Positions 8,594 through 16,110 of a DNA stretch of 36,436 nucleotides are shown here, in pieces. Origin of the DNA: Candidatus Moranbacteria bacterium GW2011_GWE1_49_15 (GTDB lineage: Bacteria > Patescibacteriota > Minisyncoccia > Moranbacterales > GWC2-37-73); NCBI GenBank assembly GCA_001003855.1, contig LCPX01000001.1, positions 1-36,436 on the forward strand, written 5' to 3'. The position numbers were made by a program, and so were the translations under genes. Position 1 is the stretch's first letter. Each line of letters opens with the position of its first letter. The notes beneath the pieces were generated by a model that was not told the DNA's origin, made no database searches, and saw only the letters and a list, made by a program, of their open reading frames with translations.

Positions 8594-8651
8594 AATTGGC
8601 TCTTTTATGATTCTTAAGCTTCATTTCATTGAATATTATAGCATGGATTAC

Positions 8652-8672
8652 AAAAACTCCCCAGATGGGGAG
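8652..8672 (-). terminator. Intrinsic terminator
   Basis: CTCCCC(8657-8662)-AGAT-GGGGAG(8667-8672); the minus-strand transcript ends in TTTTTG. Confidence 0.75.
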
Positions 8673-8679
8673 CTTGTTG

Positions 8680-8698
8680 TGTGCGTCGTGAGGGATTC
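8680..8698 (-). repeat. 19-bp duplicate of the 3' end of tRNA-Lys
   Basis: TGTGCGTCGTGAGGGATTC at 8680-8698 is identical to 9059-9077 (3' end of tRNA-Lys plus 2 bp downstream). Confidence 0.93.
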
Positions 8699-8873
8699 CC
8701 TATTGGTCTGGGATTTTTATTTTGTGGGATTTACGCATCACTCGCTCGCCGTCGCTCACTCGTTCTTTGTCCTGGGCAGCGCTGAATGCTCGCGCGCTCG
8801 CATCCATCGACGCACGCTAGGATGGCTTTCTGCTGAAAGTCATCCTGCTTAGCTCCTGCCAGTTCGAATCCCT
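8691..8873. repeat. Inverted-repeat-bounded unit II (tRNA T-arm-like termini)
   Basis: AGGGATTC (8691-8698) ... GAATCCCT (8866-8873). Interior holds the 11-bp stem GGATGGCTTTC/GAAAGTCATCC (one G-T) and CTCGCTCGCCGTCGCTCACTCG. Confidence 0.7.
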
Positions 8874-8885
8874 TTCCATTGACAT

Positions 8886-9007
8886 GAGGGATTCCTCCTC
8901 ACCCGTCGCTCGGCGTGCCTTCAGCACAAGCCTCGCTCCTCCTTCGGAGCCGGGGTTTTCAAAAACGCAAAGCAGTTTGCATTTTTGAAATACCCTTCGA
9001 ATCCCTC
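8886..9007. repeat. Inverted-repeat-bounded unit I (tRNA T-arm-like termini)
   Basis: GAGGGATTC (8886-8894) ... GAATCCCTC (8999-9007). Interior holds the 15-bp stem TTTCAAAAACGCAAA/TTTGCATTTTTGAAA with one wobble and a CGTCGCTCGGCG core. Confidence 0.7.
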
Positions 9008-9019
9008 TTCGAAATGCTA

Positions 9020-9059
9020 ATATTAAAAAAGACCCCTTTCATGGGGTCTTTTTTAATAT
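9020..9059. terminator. Terminator after tRNA-Lys
   Basis: ATATTAAAAAAGACCCC(9020-9036)-TTTCAT-GGGGTCTTTTTTAATAT(9043-9059): 17-bp perfect stem with A/T tracts. Confidence 0.9.
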
Positions 9060-9060
9060 G

Positions 9061-9133
9061 TGCGTCGTGAGGGATTCGAACCCCCGACCATCGGCTTAAA
9101 AGGCCGTTGCTCTACCAACTGAGCTAACGACGC
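9061..9133 (-). tRNA. tRNA-Lys(UUU)
   Basis: Minus strand GCGTCGTTAGCTCAGTTGGTAGAGCAACGGCCTTTTAAGCCGATGGTCGGGGGTTCGAATCCCTCACGACGCA. 7-bp acceptor, D, anticodon and T arms all visible; anticodon loop CTTTTAA gives TTT. CCA is not encoded. Confidence 0.96.
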
Positions 9134-15246: not shown

Positions 15247-15536
15247 CTTTTTTTATCTTTTCGCCCATTGAGGAGTCGCTTCGCTCCCAAAACCCCTCGG
15301 TTTTGATATTTCCGCCACGGGGAAAATCCTTTTTCCCAACGCCCTTTTCCCACAATGCCGAAAAACAAAAAAATACTCCTTACGGAGTATTTCTTTTTTA
15401 TCGTTTCGCCCAATAAGGGGTCGCTTCGCTCCTTGAAACCTTGCGGTTTCAATGCTTCCACCCCGGGAAAACTTTCGTTTTCCCGACCCCTTTCTAATCC
15501 ACAATAGCCAAAAAGAAAAAACGCCGAAGCGTTTTT
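15225..15536 (-). repeat. Tandem ~145-bp structured repeat downstream of rpsI (2 full units plus the rpsI 3' end as a partial third)
   Basis: Hairpins begin at 15225, 15371 and 15516. Each is followed on + by T-run-ATC(T/G)TTTCGCCCA-type sequence, and in units 1-2 by GGGTCGCTTCGCTCC/GGAGTCGCTTCGCTCC, an AAACC-NNNN-GGTTT hairpin and a GGGAAAA...TTTTCCC hairpin. Confidence 0.85.
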
Positions 15537-16110
15537 ATCTTTTTGCCCACTGTGGAGCGCGTCTTGCTTTTTTGAGTCCCGGTTTTTTCCTTTCAACCTT
15601 CCTTGCGTCTCGGGTGAGAAATCCTCCGTCGCGGAGGGATTTCTTGAGAGCCTCGTCGAATTCAACCAATGCCCTGGCGATTCCAAGTTGCACCGCTTCG
15701 ACCTGTCCGGTCATTCCTCCTCCTTTGACGAGAGCCGTCATGGTGAATTTTCCGTGCATTCCGATCTCCTTAAGAGGAGCCATCATCACGTTCTGCTGGG
15801 CCAAAGTCGGGAAATAATCCTTCATCTCCTTGCCGTTGATGATGAGTTCGGCATCGGTCGCTTTGTCGTTGGAGTATAACCTGACCTGGGCTACCGAAGT
15901 CTTCCTCCTGCCAACTCCGTGGAAGTATTTGCCTTCCATCTTCAAGGCCTTCTTCTCGACTTTAACCTCCGGCTTCGCTTCCGCCTTGGTTTCTGTCTTG
16001 TTCACGATTGTCGCCGCTTTCTTAGCCGGGGCTTTCTTGGCCGGGGCCTTCTTGGCGGCGGCTTTCTTCGGCGCGGCCTTCTTTGTTGCTGCTTTTTTTG
16101 CTACTGCCAT
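15535..16110 (-). CDS. rpsI: 30S ribosomal protein S9 with Lys/Ala-rich N-terminal extension
   Basis: 'GVGRRKTSVAQVRLYSNDKATDAELIINGKEMKDYFP...GGGMTGQVEAVQLGIARALVEFD...LTRDARKVERKKPGLKKARRAPQWAKR'. Confidence 0.97.
   Translation of the reverse strand: MAVAKKAATKKAAPKKAAAKKAPAKKAPAKKAATIVNKTETKAEAKPEVKVEKKALKMEGKYFHGVGRRKTSVAQVRLYSNDKATDAELIINGKEMKDYFPTLAQQNVMMAPLKEIGMHGKFTMTALVKGGGMTGQVEAVQLGIARALVEFDEALKKSLRDGGFLTRDARKVERKKPGLKKARRAPQWAKR

Follow-up and report, generated by a model that had tools for sequence, protein, structure and literature searches.

Integron attC sites are structure-conserved hairpins of which one strand folds. At tRNA genes, it is well known that integrative elements leave direct copies of the gene's 3' end behind, and that fragments of the tRNA gene serve as attR sites (PMC9897764). 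Insertion at or near tRNA genes, with duplication of the target, is also described for casposons and for the tRNA-targeting retrotransposons of Dictyostelium (PMC6614799, PMC5006619). In this study, we describe units behind tRNA genes, first met in a window of 36,436 nucleotides, the whole stretch of DNA that was analysed (contig LCPX01000001.1 of Candidatus Moranbacteria bacterium GW2011_GWE1_49_15), and we compare this locus with fragmented MAGs. The unit family is widespread, structurally conserved and looks mobile.

The units are apparently undescribed so far. At the locus, the tRNA alone reached an Rfam gathering score, with no family for the units; at lax Rfam thresholds TD-2 obtained 42.9 of the 48.7 bits, and was rejected as lying below the cut-off and aligning generic hairpins together with a terminator. 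Distant blastn comparison with phages and plasmids gave no match to the units, none of the viral contigs carried the core of type A bodies, and in the literature covered, largely outside subscription journals, nothing was found on units without genes whose inverted arms match the target.

Layout of the locus behind tRNA-Lys

Read on the minus strand from tRNA-Lys, the locus runs from the tRNA 3' end (t3) through terminator T1, unit B, unit A, a spacer and a second copy of t3 to terminator T2 (Table 1). The original prediction had drawn two units here, unit I (8886-9007) and unit II (8691-8873), bounded by inverted repeats. Unit I, bounded by GAGGGATTC and GAATCCCTC, stands as drawn, as do the strong internal hairpins of both units and the identity of their termini with the T-arm of the neighbouring tRNA-Lys. 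The start of unit II had to be moved, since the AGGGATTC at 8691 is part of the exact direct repeat of the tRNA-Lys 3' end, and unit II as first drawn had fused unit A with the t3 copy. That direct repeat, the terminators on both sides and the element behind rpsI are additions to the earlier picture. The body proper of unit A spans 8726-8861; a covariance model matches 8719-8876 (E 7.3e-34), and alignment with 64 homologues revealed compensatory changes in 19 of 23 pairs.

Table 1. Coordinates of features in the window, listed in minus-strand order from tRNA-Lys, with the rpsI element last
Feature	Position	Strand	Basis
tRNA-Lys (TTT), target gene	9060..9133	(-)	ARAGORN; Rfam RF00005, 74.6 bits
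t3, first copy, tRNA-Lys 3' end GAATCCCTCACGACGCACA, inside the gene	9059..9077	(-)	exact 19-bp direct repeat with 8680-8698
T1, hairpin resembling an intrinsic terminator, separating the tRNA from unit B	9020..9059	(-)	17-bp perfect inverted repeat with T/A tracts
Inverted arm of unit B, GAGGGATTCGAA, the tRNA-Lys T-arm in reverse complement	8996..9007	(-)	
Unit B (unit I), made up of an arm and a hairpin-rich body, with right end GGAGGAATCCCTC	8886..9007	(-)	homologues behind tRNAs, many relatives
Inverted arm of unit A, AGGGATTCGAAC	8862..8873	(-)	
Unit A (corrected unit II), made up of an arm, a branched body and a second hairpin, with right end GATGCGTAAATCCC	8726..8873	(-)	
27-nt spacer between unit A and t3 copy	8699..8725	(-)	read directly off the sequence
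t3 copy, the tRNA-Lys 3' end repeated	8680..8698	(-)	exact 19-bp direct repeat
T2, distal terminator-like hairpin CTCCCCATCTGGGGAG with T run	8651..8679	(-)	read directly off the sequence
Type D element behind rpsI, on the plan of the tRNA locus	15396..15556	(-)	

Distribution within the genome and across the order

In the genome of the window, 11 of 29 tRNAs have a copy of their own 3' end (at least 14 of 17 positions) no more than 450 nt downstream, compared with 3% when tRNAs were swapped against each other's flanks. A relative of unit A, 87% identical, lies behind tRNA-Gln(CTG), and further unit pieces were found behind tRNA-Gln(TTG), Tyr, Trp and Ser; each of these has a 3'-end copy of its own tRNA, some of the copies being partial. 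Homologues of unit A occur in most genomes of its family, and 25 of 57 relatives have matches. The covariance model recovered type A bodies from 40 of the 131 genomes of the order and, in a sample of the class, from one genus outside it, and among named records the A core is found mainly in MAGs of Candidatus Moranbacteria/Moraniibacteriota and of the Parcubacteria group. Most A bodies (88 of 106) have a same-strand tRNA no more than 600 nt upstream; some A units have no tRNA nearby. The original prediction of a repeated family, associated with tRNA genes and using a tRNA arm as terminus, is thereby confirmed, many copies having been found where a single occurrence would have spoken against it. 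Counts of B-type units on the reverse strand were rejected as artefacts of the B palindrome.

Ends that follow the target gene

The units share a common plan, consisting of the 3' end of the gene (t3), a terminator, an inverted arm (t3'), a body of type A, B, C or D and the 3' end once more as a direct copy, after which another terminator and unit often follow. Together, t3, T1 and t3' form a palindrome with the terminator at its centre. Arms and copies track the local gene, even between isotypes whose bodies are 90-95% identical. When 87 inverted arms were compared with their own tRNAs the match score was 1200, against 880±16 after permutation, and the arms follow variants of the T-loop, with CGGAC where the Glu/Gly loop is TCCGA and TTGAAC where the Arg loop is TTCAA. 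Examples are CTAGGATTCGAAC for a Gln tRNA whose stem is CTAG, AGGGGAATCGGAC for a Glu tRNA whose loop is TCCGA, GAGGGACTTGAAC for an Arg tRNA whose loop is TTCAA and GTAGGAATCGAA for a Trp tRNA. The direct copies (9-20 nt, or longer when the terminator is included) often match the specific isotype at 17/17 positions, and many are exact across isotypes. In some cross-isotype pairs the bodies are 91-95% identical, yet their ends remain target-specific; one such pair consists of the window's Lys unit and its Gln counterpart in this genome. A classical attP that carries a fixed copy of one isotype was rejected, since it leaves cross-isotype bodies with switched ends unexplained.

The freshest-looking arms (L143, L211, L133) are a complete 22-nt reverse complement that extends up to the CCA side, and some other arms have drifted. 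Junctions near A58 are precise and recur across genomes. The nearest body in another genome lay at the same isotype in 26 of 63 cases (null 7), so that much of the spread is due to inheritance or transfer at the same tRNA and not to jumping.

Structure of the bodies

The units are about 65-180 bp long and non-coding. In 65 aligned A bodies, 96.8% of the cells pair, and 254 cells are changed on both sides, whereas shuffles gave 72.5±8.4 and slid controls no more than 57. In stems that both strands share, G.U outnumbers A.C on the tRNA-sense strand (73 vs 22, nominal p 1.5e-7, cells not being independent), which agrees with the wobble predicted to favour the minus strand and suggests that one strand, the sense strand, folds. 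As G.T beats A.C in DNA too, the wobble bias leaves RNA versus single-stranded DNA undecided. Bodies of types B, C and D differ in sequence and share the same frame.

Several variants were noted. Some A bodies (L101, L135, L124) have hairpins, CTGCCTACCGGCAGGCAGG for instance, inserted into their loops, perhaps representing another small repeat within the units; L147 (G001:C10) is a chimeric unit in which an A-type body is joined to a B-type end; and in a distant family of the phylum sample yet another body, with an arm and an exact 3' copy, lies downstream of a tRNA-Ile (L265).

Type D bodies and targets other than tRNA

The D body is shorter and occurs in families across the phylum. A search for a 19-nt D motif, made without reference to tRNAs, identified it in 14 of the 380 phylum genomes, while the reversed control gave no hits; 25 of the 31 sites lie behind a tRNA, 17 of them followed by a tRNA 3' copy, some sites being counted in two overlapping loci. 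At rpsI in the window, the order is rpsI 3' end, terminator, inverted arm (15498-15521, 83% over 24 nt to the rpsI end), D body, direct copy (15395-15412, 89% over 18 nt) and terminator, a plan also present in G002. An element behind rpsI implies that neither tRNA structure nor the T-arm palindrome is needed. In a genome of another taxonomic order, a unit lies behind the tmRNA gene, the end of which is tRNA-like (L215).

Direction of growth

The newest blocks lie nearest the gene, with older ones displaced outward. At tRNA-Gly(TCC), a terminator AAGGTCC...GGACCTT adjoins the tRNA in G004 and G011, and the same terminator is second in G016 and G018, where a new block with its own terminator, arm, A body and 3' copy precedes it; new blocks are thus added beside the gene and older ones shifted. 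At five loci (L068, L088, L131, L225, L290) the terminator was duplicated along with the 3' end, nearly or fully identically, and similar first terminators occur at different loci, e.g. at Lys and Tyr in G009. As a separate observation, several tandem degenerate tRNA-Ile-like 5' fragments (GGGCGATTAGCTCAGGTGGAGAGCGGAGCG...) are found between tRNA-Ala and tRNA-Ile at L171 (G000:C26:7200-9100).

Recombinase genes around the units

Genes for large serine recombinases (LSRs) are present in 77 of the 131 genomes of the order. Islands bearing them at the 3' ends of tRNA-Glu, tRNA-Pro and other tRNAs were located at L288:6809-8344, L289:9585-11219, L291:8781-10265, L290:9023-10498 and L293:11375-12994; the recombinase ORF has its end within the tRNA or within a unit's arm, and at L290 and L291 a rolling-circle Rep (HUH) is encoded as well. 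Tyrosine recombinases are down to one gene in the genome of the window, G009, G015 and others. Y1/RAYT transposases, reverse transcriptases and a dedicated tyrosine integrase were rejected as obligate movers, as they are not common to unit-bearing genomes.

Discussion

The units are probably, in our reading, small non-coding, non-autonomous insertion elements of Patescibacteria, with target-derived ends, that occupy the 3' ends of tRNA, tmRNA and rpsI genes. An insertion would add a block of terminator, t3' and body, and would duplicate the last ~18 nt of the gene (from about A58 to the CA end), so that the gene would stay intact. One strand of the body may fold, and t3' would pair with the direct copy into a hairpin stem that reproduces the target site. 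Pairing between arm and copy presumably matters, because it is kept across targets; the ends may be derived from the target, or may be obliged to pair in order to work. The arm could be written by copying from the target at insertion or by later correction, both being possible, and the putative enzyme probably acts in trans. A more far-reaching version, put forward tentatively, is that these are phylum-wide insertion elements that lack genes and any enzyme of their own, that have both ends rewritten from the target (one as an inverted, one as a direct copy) at tRNA, tmRNA and protein-gene 3' ends, and that display the duplex of the site when folded.

Could larger islands be the source? That the units are satellites or minimal derivatives of LSR islands, moved in trans by LSRs, seems rather unlikely to us, although the two kinds of DNA meet at the same places: of 30 LSR genes sampled, 15 terminate within or right at a tRNA gene; islands, some of which carry a rolling-circle Rep, are found with a tRNA on one side and a unit on the other; and two islands are seated in a unit's own t3' (L145, L202), showing that an arm can serve as an alternative landing site. 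The junctions differ, however, the far end of an island keeping only the last 6-8 nt of the tRNA where units have ~18 nt, and this difference led us to reject the islands as a direct source. Beyond these few nucleotides follows an intact terminator-arm-A locus, and the islands had therefore entered existing units; the island at L288 splits such a terminator-t3'-A locus, of which L137, with the same terminator and arm, is the empty counterpart. No clear link was seen between LSR presence and units (27 of 40 unit-bearing vs 50 of 91 other genomes, p 0.25), and LSRs were found neither in the genome of the window nor in G011.

Alternatively, no dedicated enzyme may be involved, with template switching or recombination during replication acting on the terminator palindrome and the t3/t3' microhomology, and quasi-palindrome correction keeping the arms matched. 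We consider this unlikely. It would account for the t3-T1-t3' palindrome centred on the terminator, for arms that match the target at tRNA and protein genes alike, and for genomes that have no reverse transcriptase, Y1 or extra tyrosine recombinase in common. The first terminator of L068, however, is imperfect in the same way as the original, although snap-back copying would have corrected such flaws, and the recurrence of precise junctions near A58 also argues against it.

A role in the host, with the units as cis-acting RNA regulators in which t3' of a read-through transcript pairs with the tRNA 3' end or its copy and thereby controls folding or maturation of the tRNA, is in our opinion quite unlikely. 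The sense-strand structure with its G.U preference, the compensatory changes and a pairing potential matched to the target would all suit such a role, and a host function under selection could equally conserve the structure of the body. Against it stand a terminator ahead of nearly every unit, the identical plan at rpsI, the patchy occurrence (40/131 genomes of the order), sister species with different body types at the same tRNA, and the many tandem and decayed copies; a regulatory role fits this patchy, tandem and mixed distribution less well than insertion does.

Retroviral primer-binding sites are copies of about the last 18 nt of a tRNA, a length close to that of the direct copies. This resemblance would suit a retro-element whose cDNA synthesis uses tRNA 3' ends as primer site or template. 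Such an origin is very improbable, given that RVT_1 is absent from the unit-bearing genome of the window, from G009 (100% complete), G011, G014 and G017, and that rpsI is used as a target too. The originally predicted REPIN/MITE-like family moved by a Y1/RAYT transposase is hardly credible any longer despite hairpin-rich non-coding repeats and two Y1_Tnp matches in the genome of the window, as Y1_Tnp is absent from all six genomes of genus g4, each with 5-9 A units, and the termini change with the target gene instead of being element-specific.

If the insertion-element reading is true, such elements can insert beside essential genes without damage in some of the smallest known bacterial genomes. 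The units also offer a ready explanation for unannotated sequence behind Patescibacteria tRNA genes, and they reveal alternative landing sites for larger serine-recombinase islands.

Comparison with known systems

Like REPIN/RAYT elements and MITEs, the units are short non-coding hairpin repeats with many copies. REPINs have an element-specific REP palindrome at both ends, whereas the arms of the units vary with the target, and unit-rich genomes without Y1 genes exist; MITEs share fixed terminal inverted repeats with an autonomous transposon and have a short fixed target duplication, whereas the inverted arm of the units is target sequence and their direct copy varies in length. With integron attC sites they share structure-conserved hairpins and the likely folding of one strand, but they have no cassette genes, and the places they occupy are the 3' ends of genes. 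Casposons and the Dictyostelium retrotransposons likewise insert at or close to tRNA genes and duplicate the target, but they encode their own enzyme, as the units do not; we know of no casposon or Dictyostelium tRNA-targeting retrotransposon with target-matched inverted arms.

The LSR islands of the same bacteria also target the 3' ends of tRNAs of many isotypes. In contrast to the units, they are kilobase-sized, carry genes and split existing units, and the two share no att junction (6-8 nt against ~18 nt). Closest are the integrative elements of tRNA 3' ends (phages, ICEs, islands), with which the units have in common the insertion at the tRNA 3' end, the restored gene, tandem accretion and the direct copy on the far side, a repeat of the gene's 3' end that is 19/19 in the window and 17/17 at many other loci. 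They differ from these in being gene-less, 65-180 bp leaving no room for an integrase, and in having a structured body and an inverted copy of the target end. Moreover, one body family of the units uses nearly every tRNA isotype, rpsI being reached with another body. The ends of a mobile element are normally its own, whereas those of the units vary with the host gene.
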